Assembly (NCBI GenBank): GCA_033762255.1
Contig: JANRLT010000021.1
Coordinates: forward strand, 62,001 to 126,000
Direction of reading: 5' to 3'
Length of the DNA stretch: 64,000 nt
DNA from: Pirellulales bacterium
Lineage (GTDB): Bacteria; Planctomycetota; Planctomycetia; Pirellulales; JALHPA01
Below, piece after piece: positions 2,988-21,314 of this stretch. The notes under the pieces were generated by a model. It was given only the letters and a program-made list of their open reading frames with translations. It did not search any database and was not told the DNA's origin. Each line of letters opens with the position of its first letter. Positions within the stretch are counted from its first letter, which is position 1. The position numbers and the translations under genes were made by a program.

Positions 2988-3959
2988 TTAATTCACTTCA
3001 TTTGCCGTTTCGCCGCTGGCCCGGGTGACGAATTTAGCAAACTCACGGATGTTGATATCGCTATTGAGAAAGCGTACCGAGGAATCGCCAAAGACGATAT
3101 TCGCCCCGCTGGTGTGAAAGGAATAGGTTTCACTGCTTCCTTCCGAACCATAAAATGGATGGGGAAACGTGTTGCCAAAATCCTCGCCGTTGGTGCAATT
3201 CACGGCGCAGGGTCCGGGAAAGGATTTGCCGTCATAGCTTGATCCATCCACGCTGAAATCGCTGGCCGGACGGCACCACCCCCCCGCATTGACACGATTC
3301 GTGTTGATATCCGCGGCAAGTTGCATGCCCCCTTGGTAAACATAGGGACGTCCGGCTGATTCCGCATACAGGATCGTCTTGGACGTACCATCCGTCACAT
3401 CTTTGAACTTGGGATTCCCATTCTTGGGGAGCATGCCGGTACCGGCAAAATCAACTAAATTGGCGTCTTTCAATCGCTTATCGACGCTAATGGTGGGGGA
3501 ATAATCCGTGATTGCCACCAGGTTCCCCCGCCAACTGGGTTGCGGGTCGCCATCCAGCCGGTCGGCATCGGGCGAGGAAGGGCACAAAAACGTGGTGATG
3601 ATAGTGCTGGTCACCGGCAGATTCTTGACATGCGACCAATTCAGGGTTTTGTCGTAGCGCTTAAAGAGGTTGTCCTCCTCGATAAAGGGCAACAGTTGCA
3701 ACAGCCCGGCAATCCGCGGCAGGGGCGTCACACCCGCCGGTCGAATACTGGAAGGGAGTTTTTTGTAGGCATCGCTAAAGTTGTGCGCGGCGATGCCCAA
3801 CTGGCGGATGTTATTGGTGCACTGCCCGCGCAGGGCGGCTTGCCGGGCCGCCTGGATGGCGGGCAGCAATAACGCGACCAAAATGCCAATAATTGCGATT
3901 ACGACCAGCAGTTCCACAAGGGTGAAACCGCGTCGCGACAAAGGGGAAAACCGTAACAT
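2988..3959 (-). CDS. DUF1559 prepilin-like protein
   Basis: Predicted exported pseudopilin-like protein of the large planctomycete DUF1559 (SBP_bac_10) family; its molecular function is unknown. The 323-residue product starts with a short basic leader and the type IV prepilin motif [19 protein letters not shown], so a prepilin peptidase should cut before the Phe. The middle has the usual [13 protein letters not shown] segment after the helix. The C-terminal signature is His-X9-Asp-Ser ([12 protein letters not shown]), where most members have Asp-Gly. The ATG at 3959 has AGGAG eight bases upstream, which settles the start against in-frame codons further left. It is the last gene of an operon with the lipoprotein and transthyretin-like protein upstream and ends at an intrinsic terminator. 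Confidence 0.92.
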
Positions 3960-4051
3960 GAACGTACTCCTGGAAACAAAGTTGTAAGGTGTAATCTTTC
4001 TTGAAATCCGTCCGTCGGACCCAAGATAAAAATGGTGAAGGTGGTTGAAAT

Positions 4052-4531
4052 TCAACGAGTGATGTTTTTTGCCGGAATTTTGGTTGGTGCCTGGCCAACC
4101 GTCACTTTCCAATCCGTGGTGTTCGGGTCGGAGTATTTCGCGGGGAGTGAGTTCTCTCCCCGTTCATAGCTTTCGCCATTTTTTACCAATGGATAATGTT
4201 GCACGGTGATCTTGTACTCTCCCGTCGCGGCTCCATCTCCCGTTTCGTAGGTGGTGACGGTAAAATTTCCCTCCTTATCAGTTTGCGCCCGCGCCGCCAG
4301 CGCCGGAGAACCCGCGGCACTGGGATGCAGGATGATCTGGGCATGGGGCAAAGGCTGGTTATTCACCAGTAACCGCCCTTCCACCGGAAATGTCGCCAAT
4401 CGTTCTGGCTGGGATTTGCCGCAGCCAACAACCAATGGCAATGCACAGAACGCCAGCAACAGCCAAAAACCAGAGCCACGTCCCATAGGCGCGGGAAGCT
4501 CGCGATCCCGGCAATAAACTTCAATTCGCAT
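4052..4531 (-). CDS. Lipoprotein with transthyretin-like (carboxypeptidase regulatory) domain
   Basis: Predicted lipoprotein of 159 residues. A basic N-terminus leads into a hydrophobic segment ending in LPLVVGC, a good lipobox with the acylated Cys near residue 37. The mature part ([23 protein letters not shown], then [27 protein letters not shown]) has the pattern of the small beta-sandwich common in planctomycete lipoproteins next to DUF1559 genes. The ATG at 4531 has AGGA about ten bases upstream; an internal Met16 is a possible alternative start. It lies between the other two genes of the same operon. Surface or periplasmic location is likely; function is unknown. Confidence 0.85.
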
Positions 4532-4590
4532 GATGAAAATTCCTCAAAACAGTAGTGGTAAAAAATCCAGATAAATTCGCTCTCCCGGGA

Positions 4591-5055
4591 TCAATCCGCA
4601 CAGCAAATTTGCAGTGGTAGACTCCAATCAATCTCTGGTGATTTCGCGGGATCTATCCGTACCAACAACGGCGTTTGACGCCATTCCTGATAACGCCGCG
4701 GAAGTCGCTCCGGGCCGGGGATCAATGATTCATATTCATGAATTTTTGGCCGCCAACTGGCGGTGACGTGGTATTCCCCCGGCGAAAGATCGCGCCGGGA
4801 AATATAAAATTCACCTTCCGAGTTGGTTACCGTCGTGCATAACGAGGTGGCGCTCATTTGCTTATTGGCAAAAAAACGCAACACGACGCCCCCCGTCGGC
4901 AAGCCGTTCATACGCACATTTCCCGTAATCACCGGACGGTCGTATTGAGACGGCAATGTTTCACGAAGCGAATCCAGCCATTGCCAGCTAACCGTGCCAA
5001 TTAACAGCACGCCGGAAAACAAACGGGCCCACAAGGGGAACAATTCCAGACTCAT
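4591..5055 (-). CDS. Membrane-anchored transthyretin-like domain protein
   Basis: A 154-residue protein with one N-terminal hydrophobic segment (LWARLFSGVLLIGTVSWQWL) that is either an uncleaved anchor or a signal, followed by a beta-sandwich with the pattern VITGNVRMNGLPTGGVVLRFF ... NSEGEFYISRRDLSPGEYHVTA. This is the same fold type as the next gene, but without a lipobox. It is the first gene of the three-gene operon ending in DUF1559. The ATG at 5055 is used; a TTG two codons upstream is possible and no good Shine-Dalgarno is visible. The pairing of two such domains with a pseudopilin suggests a shared envelope job, which is inference. Confidence 0.78.
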   Translation of the reverse strand: MSLELFPLWARLFSGVLLIGTVSWQWLDSLRETLPSQYDRPVITGNVRMNGLPTGGVVLRFFANKQMSATSLCTTVTNSEGEFYISRRDLSPGEYHVTASWRPKIHEYESLIPGPERLPRRYQEWRQTPLLVRIDPAKSPEIDWSLPLQICCAD

Positions 5056-11397: not shown

Positions 11398-14300
11398 TTA
11401 CTGTCCCGGTGCCGCGCTAGTTGGCGTTCCCTGGCCAACAACTCGACGCGGACTGTGATACAGACCGACTTCGTCCCGACCGTCGCCGTCCCAATCAGCC
11501 GCGACTGGTTGGACGGACTGGCTGAACTGCGCGGCTGTCATTCCCGCCGGAACGCTAATCGACACGACTTCATCGCTCTCGTCCAGCACGCGATTATTAT
11601 TGGTGTCGAGGATAAAGCGATCCCCGCGATATACGCCCAACTGGTCGACGCCATCCCCATCCCAGTCGCCAACAATCGGCTGATCGCCGTTGGCTCCGTA
11701 GCTGGCCGCTAGATCGATGGGGCTAAATTTGCCATCGCCATCGACATCCAGCCGCCATTCGCCGTTATTATAGACGCCGATGCTATCCGACCCCTGGCCG
11801 GTCCAGTCTCCCGTGACGGGATGATCGATATTGGTGCCATAGTGGAAGACATGGTCGATCAGGTCCGCCCGCAGCTTGCCTGTGAGCGAACGTTTGAGCG
11901 TTCGTTCGCCCAGCGGTGCTTCATCCGGTAACGGAGGCATATTTTTGGCCTTGCCCGTCGGTGGATTCAGGGCAATCGGCAGACCCGGTTCGCGCAGGAT
12001 CGCTTCGGGATCGCGGGGCCAGGCAGGCCCATAAATGCCAATGTCGTCCTTGCCGTCGCCGTCCCAGTCTCCAACCACGGGCAGGTCTTCTTCGGTCCCC
12101 AGCTTCGCCCAGAGGTCGTCTTTGTCCCAACGGCCATTGGCGTTCAGATCAATAAACCATTCGCCGCGGATATAGACGCCCAGCTCGCTTTGCCCATCGC
12201 CGTTATAGTCCCCGGGAACGGGAATGGCGTTTTCATTGCCAAAGATCGGCGTGGCGACGGTTTGGCCGTCGCGGCGGTACAGACTCCATTGCGTCCGGCT
12301 CATCTCCACGCCGTTCCATGTTTGCAGATTGAGCTGACTGGCAAAGGCGATTTCCGGCTCTTTTTCCCGCTCGGTGCGGGGTTGGCCCGCGTCAATCACG
12401 CTTAGATGCCAGGTCTTGCCACGGACACCCGTCCCGTCAATATACAAACGGGCGATTTCCGGCGCGGGTATAAAGGGCAAAATCTTTTGCGGCGGAGTCG
12501 CGGGAGTGGCCGTAAACTGATACGTGGGCGGGGGGGGTATGCGTAAAATATCCGGCGGCGGCAGGATGGTTTCCACCACCACTTCGCTAAAATTGTTCTC
12601 GCGCGAGGTCACGCCCACCGGCACATTGATCCGGGCGATAAAGTCATAATTGGACAGCGGCACGTCGAATTCAAATTGCAACAGCGCAATGTTCACGCTG
12701 CGGTTGATCGCCAAGCCCGAAGTCGTCCCCGCGCGGTCAATATTGTCCAAAAAACCCTGCGGTTGAACCTGCCGCACGGTATACAGTTGCCCCCCCGTCA
12801 GGCCCGTAAATTCATAATACCCCTGGGCGTTGGTGGTAGTGGTCCGGGGGTTGCCATAAGCATCCAGGATCGAGTTTCCGCGGCTATCCCCTAGCAGCAA
12901 CTTAACGCCGGGAATAGGGATGCTATCCGCGCCGCGGATACCCGGGCGGCGACCATACACATCGGGCGATTGACCCGGCAAAACCACGATAGGAGGCCCA
13001 TCCTGGAACACATAACCCGACAGCGCCGCGGAGGGAAGTTCACAAAAGTCGTAGTTAACCGCGTGTTCGGCGGAATCGAGAACAATGCTTACAATCAGGT
13101 CGTCTTGCAGGACCACGCCGCCGGAACTGCCAGGAAGCGTTCCCCCTTGGAAGTAGCCGCTAGGCTGGCGTTCACGGATGGAATACAGTTTGCCCGGTTC
13201 GAGTCCGCCAAAGTGATATTCGCCGTTAGTATTCGTTAACGTGGTTTGTAGGACCGCGCCAAAGTTATCCAGCAATTCGATCGTGACTCCAGCGAGGGGT
13301 TGATCCCCTTCGTCATACACGCAATCCTCATCCGGATCAGCCCAGACCCGTCCGGCGAGACTGGCGGGAAGCAGTTCGCAAAAGTCATATTGCACGGCCG
13401 CGGTGCCAGAACCAATCGTGATTTGCCGGATCGTATCCTGAGCGGTAATGTTTCCCCCCGCCGAACCGATCATTTCCTGTCCATCAAAGTAGCCGGTCGG
13501 CTGCAGTTCGCGTACACCATAACTGCCGGGAGCCAAATTATCGAAGGAGTATTCACCCTGGGCATTGGTCAGTGTCGTGCGAATGACCGCGCCATTGGCA
13601 TCCAGTAGTTGCACCACCACGCCGCCAAGGGGGGTATCACTTGGCCCAAAAAAGCAATCATCTTGTGGGTCCGCCCAAACGCGACCCGCGATTCTGCCGG
13701 GGAGTAATTCGCAAAAATTGTTTTCGACCGACAATTCACCAGAGCCTAGATCAATCTGCGTGATCAAATCGGTCCCTTGCGACACACCACCCAAGCTGCC
13801 GGGGGTAGCGGCCCCTTGAAAATATCCCGCGGGCTGGATTTCGCGGACGGAATAAACGCCAGGGGGCAAATTTTCGAACGAATATTCCCCGTTGGCATTC
13901 GTCAAGGTCGATTGGATCACGTTGCCACTGGTGTCCAAGAGCTCGATCCGCACGCCCGCCAGCAAAATGTCATTAGGCCCAATGATGCAATCCCCTTCGG
14001 GATCCCCATGCACGCGGCCTCGAATACCGACGGGAATTTTTTCGCAGAAGTCGTAATTTTTCGCGTTTTCACCGCTCGAGAGGCTGATTTTTCCTAGATG
14101 GTCCGCGCCCAGGATCAAACCCCCGGCGGTGCCGATCATTTCCCCCCCGTGAAAGTAGCCTGCGGGCTGGATCTCGCGAATTCCATATTGTTGGTTGGGG
14201 GCCAGATTCAAAAATTCGTACTTGCCTTCGGCATCGGTAAACGTCGTGGCAATAACCGCGCCGCTGACATTGAGTAACTCTATTTTCACCCCGGACAGGG

Positions 14301-16806
14301 CAAAATCCTCGGGATCTTGAAAGCAGTCCCCATCACGGTCGGCAAAGACCTTGCCAGCGATGCTAGCGGGCAAAAATTCGCAAAAATCGTACTCGATGGC
14401 ATTGGTCCCCGAACCGAGCGCGATCTGGCCCAGGTGGTCCTGGCCTAGGACGCTGCCGCCGGCACTTCCTGGTTTTTGGCCCCCTTGATAGTAGCCAGCG
14501 GGTTGGATCTCGCGCACGCTGTAAGTGCCGGGAGCAAGATTTGCAAACTTATATTCCCCTTGGGCGTTGGTCGTGATCGTGTTGATAACTTCGCCCGAGG
14601 AATTGAGCAATTCGATCGTGACGCCACTCAGGCGTTGATCGGCGGTGGTCAAAATGCAATCTCCCTGCGGATCCGCCCAGACGCCACCGGCAATACTCGC
14701 GGGAAGCAACTCGCAAAAATCGTAATTTTCGCCGACGCCATTGCCCAATAGGACAATCCCGCCGATGTTATCGGCACCGGTGACCTGACCACCGGCGGTG
14801 CCCACCATTTGGTCCCCGTGATAGTAGCCGCTGGGTTGGGTTTCGCGCACGGCATAGATGCCGGGGGCTAAATCGGTAAAGGAATACCGCCCTTGGCTAT
14901 CGGTATAGGTGGTTTGGACGATTTGTCCGCCGCTATTGAGCAGATCGACGCGCACATTTGCCAGTGGCACATCACTCGTGGTGTAAACACAATCCCCCTG
15001 CGGATCGGCCCAGACGCGACCGCTCAGCCGGGCGGGCAGCAACTCGCAAAAATCGTAGTGAATGGCGTCGGCATTTGATCCCAGGACAATCTGACTGATG
15101 AGGTCCGTACTGGCCGTGCCTCCGGCACTGCCGACCATTTGCCCTCCTTGGTAATAACCCGCGGGTTGGATTTCCCGCACGCTATACACCCCGGGTGCCA
15201 AGTTGACAAATTCATATTGTCCCTGGCTATTGGTCGTGGTGGTCCCCACGACCTTTCCGCTGGAATTGAGTAATTCCACAGTCACGCCACCCAGCGCGAT
15301 ATCGTTGGGGCCATAAACGCAATCCCCCTGGGGATCGGCCCAGACGCGGCCGCTAAGCCGTGCGGGAATCAATTCGCAGAAATCATAATTCAATCCCTCC
15401 GCGCCTGAGCCCAGATTGATTCCTGTGATCAAATCCGTGGTCGCCACGCCTCCCGCGGTGCCAACCGTTTGTCCCCCTTGAAAGTAACCCACAGGCGTGT
15501 ATTCCCGCACGCTGTAGACGCCGGGGGGGAGGCCGGTAAATTCGTATTGGCCTTGCGCGTTGGTAAAGGCGGTTTGCAGCACCGATCCAACGGGGTTAAG
15601 TAATTCGACTTTAACATTTGCCAGCGGCAAATCGTTTGGCCCAAAGACACAATCGGCCTCGGGATCGGCAAAGACCCGCCCGGCCAACCGCACGGGCAGG
15701 ACCTCGCCAAAGTCGTAGCGCACGCCATCCTCACCCCCATCCAGAGTGATTTCGCACAGTTCATCGGCGGTAATAACCGTCCCCCGGATCGAGCCATTCA
15801 CGCTGCCCACTTTTGATCCGGTGCTGAACCAGCCGGTGGGCTGGGTTTCGACCACGCAATATTTTCCCGGTAATAGTCCGGTAAATTTGTATTCGCCGCT
15901 AGCGTTGGTGACAGCCGTTTGCCCCGTACTGACATACTGGCTGCCGTTCCATTGCATTAACGTCAAGCTGACATTCGCGATTCCCTCTTCGCCTGTCCCC
16001 TGGCTGATGGATTGATCCCGGTCATGAAAGACCACGCCCGACAAGGTAATCGGTTTTGGAACCTGGGTAAGAACTGTCACCGCCCCGGCGGTACGGTCGA
16101 TCCGGTCGATTGTGTCCGGCGGTATATAATCATCCGGCGGCAGATTTAGCGTCGAACCCGCCTGTGCGCGGGCGTTGGCAAAGTTTGTGTCAAAATAGTC
16201 ATAGTAAATCGCCTGGCCCGTGATGTCCTCGTAGTTGGGATTCGTAAAATAGCCGGTCAGGATAGAGCCTTCGAACTCGCCCCCTTCCGCCAGGGCGGTC
16301 GCGCTGAATAGCCCTTGTTCATCCACATCCAGGCTAAAGATCAGTTTTTCGCCCGCGTCCCAATCCACCAGATCAAACGTGATTAAGCTGGATCCATCCG
16401 CGACGCTGACATTACTAATGGAAAAACCCGTGGTGCTGACAATCGCCAAGGGGATAGAGTTGAACACGCCATGGCCCCCAGGCGCCGTGTCATAAAAAAT
16501 ATCCCCGAGGGTCAGGCCGCCATCCTGGAGCTTATCGCCGTCGATGGTAACGCGATTAAGCTTGGTCCCCGCCGCGCCGCCGGTAAAGGTGACTTCCAGG
16601 ATATCCGGTCGAGAATCGTCCCCGGAGGCTTCCTCGTAATAAACCGAGCCTAAATGCAGCGGAGCGACCGCCATCGCCCGGCGGGATTCCAGTTCTTCCA
16701 CGCCGCAAATTCGCAGTTGCGCCGCGCGCTCGACATGATCCGCCACGGGACCGCGAAAGAGGCTCAGGCGACTGGCCCAATGACGTACCTTGCGTAGCAT
16801 ACCCAT
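11398..16806 (-). CDS. Giant secreted protein with ten SdrD B-like modules and VCBS/FG-GAP repeats
   Basis: A 1,802-residue predicted surface or extracellular protein. The N-terminus (MGMLRKVRHWASRLSLF ... GVEELESRRAMA) resembles the planctomycete export signal around L-E-S/P-R. A region of about 230 residues of unknown fold follows. Then come ten tandem SdrD B/Cna-B-like modules of about 110 residues, each with a GRVWADPQGDC-like start, GQYEFxxLxPGxYSVRE and a YDFCELLP-like end. After a proline-rich spacer the C-terminal 400 residues carry four VCBS/FG-GAP-type blades (GDWDGDGKDDIGIY and relatives) with Asp-rich Ca-binding loops. GGAGG lies seven bases before the ATG at 16806. No sortase motif is seen. 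Adhesin or cell-wall role is inferred. Confidence 0.88.
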   Translation of the reverse strand: MGMLRKVRHWASRLSLFRGPVADHVERAAQLRICGVEELESRRAMAVAPLHLGSVYYEEASGDDSRPDILEVTFTGGAAGTKLNRVTIDGDKLQDGGLTLGDIFYDTAPGGHGVFNSIPLAIVSTTGFSISNVSVADGSSLITFDLVDWDAGEKLIFSLDVDEQGLFSATALAEGGEFEGSILTGYFTNPNYEDITGQAIYYDYFDTNFANARAQAGSTLNLPPDDYIPPDTIDRIDRTAGAVTVLTQVPKPITLSGVVFHDRDQSISQGTGEEGIANVSLTLMQWNGSQYVSTGQTAVTNASGEYKFTGLLPGKYCVVETQPTGWFSTGSKVGSVNGSIRGTVITADELCEITLDGGEDGVRYDFGEVLPVRLAGRVFADPEADCVFGPNDLPLANVKVELLNPVGSVLQTAFTNAQGQYEFTGLPPGVYSVREYTPVGYFQGGQTVGTAGGVATTDLITGINLGSGAEGLNYDFCELIPARLSGRVWADPQGDCVYGPNDIALGGVTVELLNSSGKVVGTTTTNSQGQYEFVNLAPGVYSVREIQPAGYYQGGQMVGSAGGTASTDLISQIVLGSNADAIHYDFCELLPARLSGRVWADPQGDCVYTTSDVPLANVRVDLLNSGGQIVQTTYTDSQGRYSFTDLAPGIYAVRETQPSGYYHGDQMVGTAGGQVTGADNIGGIVLLGNGVGENYDFCELLPASIAGGVWADPQGDCILTTADQRLSGVTIELLNSSGEVINTITTNAQGEYKFANLAPGTYSVREIQPAGYYQGGQKPGSAGGSVLGQDHLGQIALGSGTNAIEYDFCEFLPASIAGKVFADRDGDCFQDPEDFALSGVKIELLNVSGAVIATTFTDAEGKYEFLNLAPNQQYGIREIQPAGYFHGGEMIGTAGGLILGADHLGKISLSSGENAKNYDFCEKIPVGIRGRVHGDPEGDCIIGPNDILLAGVRIELLDTSGNVIQSTLTNANGEYSFENLPPGVYSVREIQPAGYFQGAATPGSLGGVSQGTDLITQIDLGSGELSVENNFCELLPGRIAGRVWADPQDDCFFGPSDTPLGGVVVQLLDANGAVIRTTLTNAQGEYSFDNLAPGSYGVRELQPTGYFDGQEMIGSAGGNITAQDTIRQITIGSGTAAVQYDFCELLPASLAGRVWADPDEDCVYDEGDQPLAGVTIELLDNFGAVLQTTLTNTNGEYHFGGLEPGKLYSIRERQPSGYFQGGTLPGSSGGVVLQDDLIVSIVLDSAEHAVNYDFCELPSAALSGYVFQDGPPIVVLPGQSPDVYGRRPGIRGADSIPIPGVKLLLGDSRGNSILDAYGNPRTTTTNAQGYYEFTGLTGGQLYTVRQVQPQGFLDNIDRAGTTSGLAINRSVNIALLQFEFDVPLSNYDFIARINVPVGVTSRENNFSEVVVETILPPPDILRIPPPPTYQFTATPATPPQKILPFIPAPEIARLYIDGTGVRGKTWHLSVIDAGQPRTEREKEPEIAFASQLNLQTWNGVEMSRTQWSLYRRDGQTVATPIFGNENAIPVPGDYNGDGQSELGVYIRGEWFIDLNANGRWDKDDLWAKLGTEEDLPVVGDWDGDGKDDIGIYGPAWPRDPEAILREPGLPIALNPPTGKAKNMPPLPDEAPLGERTLKRSLTGKLRADLIDHVFHYGTNIDHPVTGDWTGQGSDSIGVYNNGEWRLDVDGDGKFSPIDLAASYGANGDQPIVGDWDGDGVDQLGVYRGDRFILDTNNNRVLDESDEVVSISVPAGMTAAQFSQSVQPVAADWDGDGRDEVGLYHSPRRVVGQGTPTSAAPGQ
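13030..15710 (-). repeat. Eight tandem cysteine-paired SdrD B-like repeats (coding)
   Basis: Eight consecutive in-frame repeats of roughly 330 bases. Each encodes an Asp-Cys near its start and Phe-Cys-Glu at its end. The flanking first and last modules of the ten lack this Cys pair. The repeats have diverged in DNA but keep length and key residues. Confidence 0.85.
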
Positions 16807-16862
16807 CGTCGTACCTCCGTGCACGTCAATGTTTGATGAATTTGTTGGGGTTGCCCATCCTG

Positions 16863-18654: not shown

Positions 18655-19851
18655 TTATTCCGCTTCAGCGGCGGCTGGTTTTGCCGGTAAAAACTCCACG
18701 GTCTGGCCATCGATTTTATATGCTAGGCCGCTTTCCGCCACCAAAGCCGCTAGCAACTCATCCAAAGTCGCTTCCTTGACCGCCAGCTTAACCGGCTTGT
18801 CCAAATTGATCCCCGCCTGACGCAATGCCGTCTTGTCCAACTTGGCGGTTAATTCCAAACGGGGTAAAAGTGTCTCGATCGCCGTGGCCAGGGGAAGTTC
18901 TAGCTTCAACGTGTAACGCTTTTGACCCTCCGCAACGCTGGTCACCTTGGCGGGTTTATTTGCCAGCAGGTTTTGTAGCAACTGGTGCTCCTCGGCGGTC
19001 CCCCGCAGCGTGATTTTTTTGCCAGCAATTTCCATCTCCCGCTTGACGCCCAGTTTCTCTAGCTTTTGGCGTAATTGCGCGGGATCGGCAAAGGTGTATT
19101 GGCGGCTGACAAGGATTTTTTCCAGTTCCGCGGGAATGGGAATCAACGTGATCGAACGGCCATCGGCGGACCATTCCCACGTTAGGCCAAACTGCGCTAA
19201 AAACAGCGTGGACCGTTGAATCGTGGTCAAAGGAGGCCAAGATTTTTCCGCCCAAAGATCGTGTGGCAGTTCCCGGGGGTTGGTCGGGGTGACGCCCGCG
19301 GCGGTGGTGATTTGAGCGAGCAACTTATCTACAGCAGTCGCCTCGGGCCAAGACCACGCTTGCGAGGTTGTCCAGGGTTTGCGTAGCGGCGCGGGTATGG
19401 TGGCGAGCCGCTCGGTTTGCCACAGCGCCAGCGTGTTAAGCTTGGCGGCTGTATCGGGGGGGCCCAGGTAGATGACGCTTTCACCAATGGAAACGCCCAA
19501 TTTTTTGGCGGAAGCCAGTTTCTTTAACAATAGCTCCAGCGGTTCGCTATTTGCCGTATACTCTACAAACTGCTCGGGATCGACCCGACGGTCGAGCACA
19601 ATGCAAATTTTGTGAACGTCACTGATACGGGCCAATACCTGCCGCAGGGGAATGCGCACCCAACTGCCATCAACCGGCAGGGCAAGCTGGCGCTCCAGCG
19701 CGGAGCCGGTCAGGTATTTGGGTTTGGGTAAGGCGGGAGCGGGGGGAGTAGCTTCCGGTTTAACGGCGGGCGGGGGTGTTTGGGCAGTGGCGACAGGAAA
19801 GTAGATGGGGAGAGTGGTTAATAAGATTATTATCGAGTTTGCGAATTTCAT
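18655..19851 (-). CDS. Exported protein with STN-like (secretin/TonB N-terminal) domains
   Basis: A 398-residue exported protein. The signal peptide is KFANSIIILLTTLPIYFPVATA, then a Pro-rich stretch. An STN-like unit follows near residues 60-120 (RIPLRQVLARISDVHKICIVLD ... NSEPLELLLKKLASA). A second is at the C-terminus (KPVKLAVKEATLDELLAALVAESGLAYKI). A YTFAD...LRQKLEKLGVK segment between them resembles secretin N-domains. The secretin pore domain is absent. The ATG at 19851 follows a weak GGTGG; a GTG three codons earlier is possible. It resembles the C-terminal parts of the two membrane proteins at 47.8-53.5 kb. Function is unknown; periplasmic location is likely. Confidence 0.7.
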   Translation of the reverse strand: MKFANSIIILLTTLPIYFPVATAQTPPPAVKPEATPPAPALPKPKYLTGSALERQLALPVDGSWVRIPLRQVLARISDVHKICIVLDRRVDPEQFVEYTANSEPLELLLKKLASAKKLGVSIGESVIYLGPPDTAAKLNTLALWQTERLATIPAPLRKPWTTSQAWSWPEATAVDKLLAQITTAAGVTPTNPRELPHDLWAEKSWPPLTTIQRSTLFLAQFGLTWEWSADGRSITLIPIPAELEKILVSRQYTFADPAQLRQKLEKLGVKREMEIAGKKITLRGTAEEHQLLQNLLANKPAKVTSVAEGQKRYTLKLELPLATAIETLLPRLELTAKLDKTALRQAGINLDKPVKLAVKEATLDELLAALVAESGLAYKIDGQTVEFLPAKPAAAEAE

Positions 19852-19885
19852 ACTTACCACCAGAGTTTGGGGAAATGCCGTATTT

Positions 19886-20006: not shown

Positions 20007-21314
20007 TTACCCACCTAAAAACACCCGCCGCAATTCCTCGATCACCGTGTCACCCATGACCGTGACCGGGCCCAGCGCGCGGCTATGAATCAGGGCCTCG
20101 GCGGTGGTTTCCAAGACTTCCAGCCGGTCAAACGCATCCAACACACTCTTGCCTAGCACTAGAACGCCATCATTGTCGATAATCGCCGCGGGCTGTTGAG
20201 GGCCAACCACTTCGGCCACCGCGGTCCCCGCTCCAAAGTGCGGCCCATAGGCAATGCGCCGCACATCCCGCAAAAAAATATAGCTTTCCGGGATGGTCCG
20301 CGCATCTAGCGCTTCATGGGTGACCGAATAAGCCGTCGCATGCACGGGATGGGCCAGCACGATGGCCCGCACCTCCGCATGCTGGCGATAAATACTTTGA
20401 TGCAGTCGGCTAGCGCGGCTGGGATATTGTCCCGCCGCGGCGGTGTTTCCGCGCACTAGCACTAAATCCGCGGGCTGCAACTCATATCGGTCGCGCTGCG
20501 AAGGAGTGATGACAAAGCGTTCTTCATCCAATCGCGCCGAAAAGCTCCCTTCCGTGCTAATGAGCAGTCGTTGCCGCACTCCGCGCCGCGTAAATTCACA
20601 CAACTCCCGCCGCAATTCCAACTCCTCCGCGCCGGGAGGTGGAAAATTCGCCGGGCAAAAGTCGCTTCGTCGCGCCGCGGACTCCGCCAGTTGGGTCGCC
20701 GTTAAATGATGCATCGTACCCAGTTGGCGGGCCTGAATGATCGTCTTGGCCGCGAACTCCAACGCCTCAAATCGTTCAAACGCTTGCGCCAGGGTACTGC
20801 CACCCACGACCACGCCATGATTTTCTAACACGACGCAAGTAGGCAGCGTCTGATCGGCGGTCGCGGTCATAAATGCGTGCGCGATGTTTTGGCCCAGTTG
20901 CCGACTCCCCGGCAAGCCATACGGAGCAAAGCCAGGCTGGCCACAGACCTGATGCGCCTGGGGAAACAACCGCGTGTCCGGCGTTTGGCGGGTCATGCTA
21001 AACGCGACCAGGGACGTGGGATGGGCGTGAACAATTGCCCGCAAGTCCGGTCGCGCGGCGTAGATCGCCTGATGAAAAGGCAATTCGGACGACGGCGGAT
21101 GCAGACCGATTGATTCGCCGCCGGGCCGCACACAAACCATGTCGGTCCGCCGCAGGCTCCCTTTATCCACCCGGGCGGGAGTAATCCAGATCTGCCCCGT
21201 ATCATCCACGACAGAGAGATTTCCCCCCGACGTGGTGGTCATGCGAAACTGGTAAATCCGCTGCATGACGGATAAAAGCTGATCGCACGGGGGAAGCCAC
21301 TGGGTTGCGTGCAT
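20007..21314 (-). CDS. Tandem class II aldolase/adducin protein, second half metal-site degenerate
   Basis: A 435-residue fusion of two class II aldolase/adducin domains (as in fuculose- or ribulose-phosphate aldolases, normally about 210-230 residues). The first half (residues 1-200) keeps the catalytic Glu in SSELPFHQ, the two zinc His of IVHAHP and the third His in LENHG, so it should bind metal. The second half (about 220-435) aligns throughout, but the Glu is Ala in SRASRLHQ, the first His is Leu in IVLAHP and the third is Asp in IDNDG. Only one half is likely to be an enzyme. Neighbours give no clear substrate. Confidence 0.85.
   Translation of the reverse strand: MHATQWLPPCDQLLSVMQRIYQFRMTTTSGGNLSVVDDTGQIWITPARVDKGSLRRTDMVCVRPGGESIGLHPPSSELPFHQAIYAARPDLRAIVHAHPTSLVAFSMTRQTPDTRLFPQAHQVCGQPGFAPYGLPGSRQLGQNIAHAFMTATADQTLPTCVVLENHGVVVGGSTLAQAFERFEALEFAAKTIIQARQLGTMHHLTATQLAESAARRSDFCPANFPPPGAEELELRRELCEFTRRGVRQRLLISTEGSFSARLDEERFVITPSQRDRYELQPADLVLVRGNTAAAGQYPSRASRLHQSIYRQHAEVRAIVLAHPVHATAYSVTHEALDARTIPESYIFLRDVRRIAYGPHFGAGTAVAEVVGPQQPAAIIDNDGVLVLGKSVLDAFDRLEVLETTAEALIHSRALGPVTVMGDTVIEELRRVFLGG

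Follow-up and report, generated by a model that had tools for sequence, protein, structure and literature searches.

Introduction

Active sites shared by identical subunits have a textbook example in the class II aldolases. In Escherichia coli FucA (PDB 1fua series), Glu73 works in cis and the neighbour contributes Tyr113′, which acts on the C4 hydroxyl and completes the site, and the active site of AfPOD is a cleft formed with the adjacent subunit (both from the excerpted text of PMC11841055). Among other described systems, DrdA is an aldolase of 5-deoxyribose salvage (PMC6079011, in excerpt), and RhaEW (YuxG), which serves in L-rhamnose use, is a two-domain protein that joins a class II aldolase domain to a short-chain dehydrogenase as its second domain (PMC3870299, in excerpt). 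The aldolase domain of adducin/Hts keeps the class II fold without metal ligands or catalysis (PMC12599920, in excerpt).

Here we describe a protein in which two class II aldolase domains are fused. It is encoded in a stretch of 64,000 nucleotides from a Pirellulales bacterium (contig JANRLT010000021.1, positions 62,001 to 126,000), the whole of which we call the window. Among PubMed Central papers, judged by title or the start of the abstract and with subscription papers mostly outside, we found none that describes such a tandem class II aldolase. An earlier note on this DNA had read the active site of the second domain as decayed, and had suggested that this domain may be a regulatory or oligomerisation pseudoenzyme or may bind a different ligand.

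Results and discussion

Domain structure of the tandem aldolase

The tandem class II aldolase gene lies at 20007-21314 on the minus strand (as do all features within it given below), starts with ATG and has an open reading frame of 435 aa (protein P0001). The protein passed the curated cut-off of PF00596, the class II aldolase/adducin superfamily, which matched it in two stretches (246.6 bits versus a cut-off of 22.2, E 2e-73), and its two halves matched each other with 29% identity (82.8 bits). That one domain was misread as two is ruled out by the two PF00596 stretches together with this mutual match. We refer to residues 1-222 (20649-21314) as domain 1 (D1) and to residues 225-435 (20010-20642) as domain 2 (D2).

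The full-length AlphaFold2 model, built from the window protein and 68 homologues, had a pLDDT of 94.0 and a pTM of 0.92, and D2 folded alone reached a pLDDT of 90.7. The D1 model matched the FucA mutant 1dzz (Z 23.4, rmsd 2.4, 202 aligned) and, with the same Z of 23.4, the DHAP-bound Bacillus thuringiensis aldolase 6btg. The D2-alone model matched 1dzz with a Z of 26.9 (rmsd 2.0, 202 aligned). In the predicted models the FucA-type fold is present in both halves; this comparison, together with the conserved residues described below, bears out the earlier proposal that D2 keeps the pattern of the fold. The 50 PDB matches listed for the whole-chain query were all to single-domain folds (TM-score by query at most 0.42), and none was a solved structure spanning both domains. 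Residues 355-364 of D2 averaged a pLDDT of 70 in the domain alone, versus 92-93 for residues 351-370 in the full chain, which is weakly consistent with this region packing on D1.

The protein did not fit the narrower families it was compared with. It scored under the cut-offs of the L-fuculose/L-rhamnulose-1-phosphate aldolase models TIGR01086 (77.9 versus 400.25) and PRK08087 (88.6 versus 264) as a whole protein, and D1 scored under that of TIGR02624 (34.6 versus 400.95), so that filing it as FucA or RhaD was rejected. The best NCBIfam model for each half was that of OtnC/YgbL (3-oxo-tetronate 4-phosphate decarboxylase, NF043034), a single-domain enzyme, and was discarded at 172.4 versus an equivalog cut-off of 250, as was MtnB methylthioribulose-1-phosphate dehydratase (TIGR03328, 124.2 versus 137.05; whole protein, both domains). 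RhaEW was set aside since the C-terminal half of the window protein is a class II aldolase domain. D2 resembles the adducin/Hts domain in its non-catalytic fold, but the latter is a eukaryotic protein-binding domain, and we know of no adducin/Hts aldolase domain fused to an intact aldolase.

Active-site residues in the two halves

In the alignment with E. coli FucA, the numbering of which was verified on the K-12 gene, FucA E73/H92/H94/H155 correspond to E77/H96/H98/H166 in D1 and to A301/L320/H322/D382 in D2. The Glu and three-His metal site of L-fuculose/L-rhamnulose-1-phosphate aldolase is found in D1 and is mostly gone from D2, as the earlier note had stated of the two domains. In D1, Glu77 (21084-21086) aligns with the catalytic base, His96-Ala-His98 (21021-21029) with the first two metal ligands and His166 (20817-20819) with the third. 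In D2, Ala301 (20412-20414) replaces the catalytic Glu, Leu320-Ala-His322 (20349-20357) the His-x-His pair and Asp382 (20169-20171) the third metal His. The three substitutions reported for D2 (Glu→Ala, His→Leu, His→Asp) were thus all correct, leaving it one His of three.

D1 also has the phosphate-site residues Asn32, Thr45, Ser75 and Ser76, and the phosphate-binding positions of D2 are altered, with Phe258 at the equivalent of Asn29 and Arg300 at that of Ser72. Like FucA in the fold of both halves and in the cis catalytic, metal and phosphate residues of D1, the window protein nonetheless consists of two unequal fused halves with the metal site in one, whereas FucA is one domain in a homotetramer. 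D1 of the window protein further carries an insert of six residues (153-158; 20841-20858, minus strand) that is absent from the remaining 83 of 84 class homologues, which are gapped there.

A fixed loss in domain 2

Some match to the window protein was present in 344 of 397 genomes of the same class. The tandem occurred in at least 83 of the class genomes, once in two copies, giving 84 sequences taken from the listed places and their frames. The resulting class alignment excludes L087 (G061:C1:3003481-3003813), a 291-aa frame whose similarity (59% identity) covers just residues 8-118 of D1, and which is a partial or rearranged copy. Searching family-level genomes covered two, with a match in one, the window's own. 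When the most divergent member from the class was used as the query across the phylum, 17 of 382 genomes gave matches with E values no higher than 1e-50, and 8 of these 17 belong to other classes.

Scanning genome contigs with the window protein as the single query confirmed zero relatives. The same kind of scan with an alignment of 58 sequences (the window's and 57 class homologues) yielded 581 tblastn-confirmed places, and 80 of them were retained as named loci. The tandem was present in 80 of these 80, a count that took in all named loci and the window; smaller sets entered the alignments A3 (68 named loci and the window; 11 loci missed by the overlap filter, and L160, were left out) and A4 (64 named loci and the window). 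The 80 loci come from records titled Planctomycetes, Verrucomicrobia and Acidobacteria, and isolates with the locus include Pyrinomonas methylaliphatogenes K22, Spartobacteria bacterium LR76 and several Rhodopirellula. Some titles of metagenome-assembled genomes (for example Akkermansia and Kuenenia) seem to be loose labels and were given little weight. At L086 and L160 the tandem copy sits in a 643-aa frame with a long stretch preceding D1.

For residue counts, 182 sequences passed and were reduced to 145 distinct tandem proteins including the window's, duplicates being judged on residues 31-330 of each sequence after trimming; 10 single-domain rows were skipped, and only frames of at least 330 aa were considered, which leaves out the partial L087 among others. 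Identity to the window protein went down to 41%. In D1, the cis Glu was found in 144 of the 145 and each of the three His in 145. The single exception, L211, has Lys at the Glu77 position (1/145), either a real loss or a sequence error. In D2, Glu was found in 0, the first His in 1, the second in 90 and the third in 0. The Glu position is held by Ala (123), Ser (20) or Val (2), and the third His position by Asp (138), Asn (5) or Tyr (2). The first His position is mostly Phe (83) or Asn (46), and the second, where not His, often Tyr (31).

Because the Glu and the third His are lost in all 145 proteins and the first His in 144, the pseudo-site of D2 is a fixed loss, neither due to chance nor limited to a strain. 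Two observations had been named in advance as speaking against such a loss, orthologues with two intact sites and restriction to this strain. Neither was found: strain-specific decay is rejected by losses common to 145 distinct proteins, and none of these has two intact sites, in a sample drawn by similarity to the window's tandem family that could miss remoter members. The class member least identical to the window protein (L085, 4058-5359, minus strand; 43% identity) keeps the His-x-His pair in D2 without the Glu and third His, and is a possible intermediate in which these two would have gone before the His pair.

D2 is somewhat less conserved than D1 (mean pairwise identity 0.599 versus 0.677), a faster pace that could suggest neutral decay of a redundant second domain. 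This explanation is contradicted by the conservation of D2, which is open and full length and has many invariant residues in proteins down to 41% identity to the window's; Asp275, Asp396, Glu399 and Val400 are each present in 145 of 145, and Arg261 and Asn381 in 144. We therefore regard neutral decay as highly improbable, and D2 is probably a fixed working part.

The replaced metal positions could instead mark a new metal site or chemistry built from Asp382, His322 and their neighbours. The near fixation of Asp382 would fit this, as would the joint variation of positions 320 and 322, mainly as the pairs Phe/His (83 of 145) and Asn/Tyr (28). However, the only His that is often kept is missing in 55 of the 145, and Asn/Tyr and the other pairs give no consistent metal site. 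Judged from these residues, D2 is unlikely to have formed a new metal site, and a gain of other metal or chemistry as the role of the domain is very doubtful.

Complementary conservation of the trans loop

The loop that in FucA enters the active site of the neighbouring subunit shows the opposite distribution. In D2 it reads Ile341-Pro342-Glu343-Ser344-Tyr345 (20280-20294), aligned with FucA Tyr113 and the next four residues, and these are conserved in 144, 145, 145, 143 and 138 of the 145 tandem proteins, with Pro-Glu-Ser at its core. In D1 the corresponding loop is Phe117-Pro118-Gln119 (20958-20966), and the Glu of relatives is replaced: position 119 is Gln in 128 of 145 and Glu in 2. We compared 22 single-domain relatives, 20 picked by hand from the class-genome matches and two from the window's own genome. 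All 22 have the cis EHHH residues, and 21 the trans Glu, mostly as Pro-Glu, the exception being the MtnB-like L003. Planctomycetal microcompartment (PVM-type) aldolases, such as L002 of the same genome, share the trans Pro-Glu of D2 and the cis EHHH of D1, but in a single domain bearing both. Since D1 keeps the cis residues and has lost the trans Glu, and D2 the reverse, the loss read from these alignments is complementary, each half being without what the other half keeps.

Two features of the alignment speak against a catalytic role of the D2 loop in trans. FucA Tyr113 itself aligns with Ile341 in D2 and Phe117 in D1, and not with Glu343 or Tyr345; the trans Tyr is therefore absent from both halves, and a catalytic group in the D2 loop would have moved two or four positions along the chain. 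In the column of Glu343, E. coli FucA, AraD, YgbL and RhaD have Ile, His, Tyr and Cys, so the Glu marks the nearest relatives and not the superfamily.

We consider it fairly probable, from these patterns of residues, that the protein is a fused asymmetric half-site enzyme in which D1 holds the metal and phosphate and D2 completes the D1 site in trans. In this model, D1 would keep the metal ligands, catalytic Glu and phosphate site, and D2 would have given up all three while retaining the loop. The protein would probably assemble as a (D1-D2)2 pseudo-tetramer, a ring in which D1 and D2 may alternate and each D1 site would be completed by a D2 loop, with Glu343, and perhaps Tyr345, playing the part of FucA Tyr113′. 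The D2 sites would be dead on both counts, leaving one working site per chain.

D2 might alternatively be only a scaffold that stands in for two subunits of the tetramer and sets oligomeric state or stability without any catalytic part. The fold is fully retained in the model, and the aldolase domains of adducin, non-catalytic and tetramer-forming, offer a precedent (PMC12599920, in excerpt). A scaffold would, however, have no need for Pro342-Glu343, which all 145 proteins keep although D1 differs at the matching positions, and we think this role rather improbable.

The main rival to a half-site partner acting in trans is regulation through the old D2 pocket, a less probable reading that deserves some weight and is compatible with the one we favour: the former active site would bind a ligand such as a phosphorylated effector and control D1. 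It draws on pocket-side residues that are nearly invariant though catalysis in D2 is impossible (Ser259 in 143, Arg261 in 144, Asp275 in 145, Arg276 in 142, Ser299 in 143 and Asn381 in 144 of 145), and on Arg300 (123/145) and Asp382 (138/145), which are new and specific to D2. Yet D1 conserves some of these positions just as strongly (Ser75 and Asp50, for instance) and they may be structural, the change of the phosphate-site Asn to Phe in 133 of 145 should fill the site, and the loss of the trans Glu in D1 is left unexplained. We prefer the trans-acting half-site partner because it accounts for more of the conservation pattern than a regulatory or oligomerisation role. Of the earlier suggestion, the fixed pseudo-site on a kept fold stands; what it overlooked is the conserved trans loop, lost in D1.

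Origin of the two halves

Trees were built from 18 tandem proteins, each split into its two halves, together with 22 single-domain proteins and 4 E. coli enzymes. Each half formed one clade (100/99), and the D1 and D2 clades were sisters (91/81), with support of 98/86 after removal of three long rows (EcRhaD, EcAraD and L003). Placing D2 or D1 with the single-domain proteins instead gave trees that were not rejected (p-AU 0.149 and 0.284). An internal duplication as the origin of D1 and D2 is favoured by these sequences but not decisively; a pair of duplicated FucA-fold subunits would then have been fused and have specialised asymmetrically.

Gene neighbourhoods and candidate substrate

The neighbours of the gene in the window are uninformative: a class II tRNA synthetase (Pfam tRNA-synt_2b and HGTP_anticodon), which we take to be glycyl, and, directly downstream of the aldolase, a 401-aa protein with a sub-threshold STN match (18655-19860, minus strand). 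Farther off, at 11398-16824 (minus strand), lies a gene for a 1808-aa protein in which SdrD_B matched 10 stretches and FG-GAP matched weakly.

We searched the 80 named loci (1.07 Mb) with E. coli proteins by tblastn. RhaA was found at 4, a RhaB-type kinase at 7, FucI at 4 and an AldA-type dehydrogenase at 9, in 8 of the 9 no more than 325 bases upstream and on the same strand; no locus gave FucO, FucU or RhaM. At least one tested sugar gene was present at 17 of the 80 loci (one weak and on the other strand) and none at 63, and eight control proteins gave 2 places in total. Of the putative operon mates, 67 of 83 entered alignment A2, and NCBIfam counts were swamped by overlapping aldehyde dehydrogenase models.

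The fullest neighbourhood is that of Rhodopirellula maiorica (L100), where an L-fucose isomerase (1020.6 bits versus an equivalog cut-off of 775), a 252-aa gene, a rhamnulokinase-like kinase (505.8, just under its cut-off of 527.95), an aldehyde dehydrogenase (best model far under its own cut-off) and the tandem aldolase follow on one strand. The 252-aa gene between isomerase and kinase (3940-4695, plus strand) had no NCBIfam match at 1e-60, and a gene of about 252 aa likewise lies upstream of the kinase at L144 and L130.

In the class set, clear RhaA was present in 27 of 83 tandem genomes versus 63 of 314 others (Fisher p 0.019), leaving aside G075, G372 and G385, where the match was weak (E 2e-4 to 4e-4 or 3e-6); including them gives 28/83 and 65/314, again with p 0.019. 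In 9 of the 27, RhaA lay at most 16 kb from the tandem gene, for which the binomial chance is about 3e-14 (20 kb either side, assumed genome of 7 Mb), a significance overstated by the relatedness of the genomes. Strong full-size PF02952 matches occurred in 18 genomes, 7 of them with the tandem, and lay near it in G227 alone (about 2 kb).

The window's own genome gave no RhaA and no PF02952 match. Elsewhere it has a RhaB-like kinase (42% identity), an aldehyde dehydrogenase relative and the MtnB-like L003, as well as L002, a second, single-domain aldolase of microcompartment type, the locus of which is presumably a planctomycetal microcompartment locus. Near the single-domain aldolase is a 437-aa gene (L201, 10243-11553, plus strand) with no Pfam match at 0.001. 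As predicted from the gene context of relatives, the substrate is most likely L-fuculose-1-phosphate and/or L-rhamnulose-1-phosphate (yielding DHAP and L-lactaldehyde), and this prediction is uncertain for the window organism.

Significance

If the half-site reading is true, such a natural fusion, with each copy retaining its own half of the site, would give a clean and testable case of complementary degeneration in an enzyme. More speculatively, these proteins may be an ancient fused hetero-ring aldolase family in which the Glu(-Ser-Tyr) of the pseudo-domain serves as acid/base in place of Tyr113′ and the dead D2 pocket as a second, regulatory site; as tentatively, that family might span Planctomycetota and the records titled Acidobacteria and Verrucomicrobia. 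In such a family, catalysis would be divided over two halves of one chain unable to work alone, their pairing fixed by gene fusion. The half-site reading would make a defined family of genes that probably number in the hundreds and can as yet be recognised just as "class II aldolase/adducin", and it suggests a second L-fucose/L-rhamnose route outside the microcompartment, in bacteria thought to degrade algal and plant sugars.
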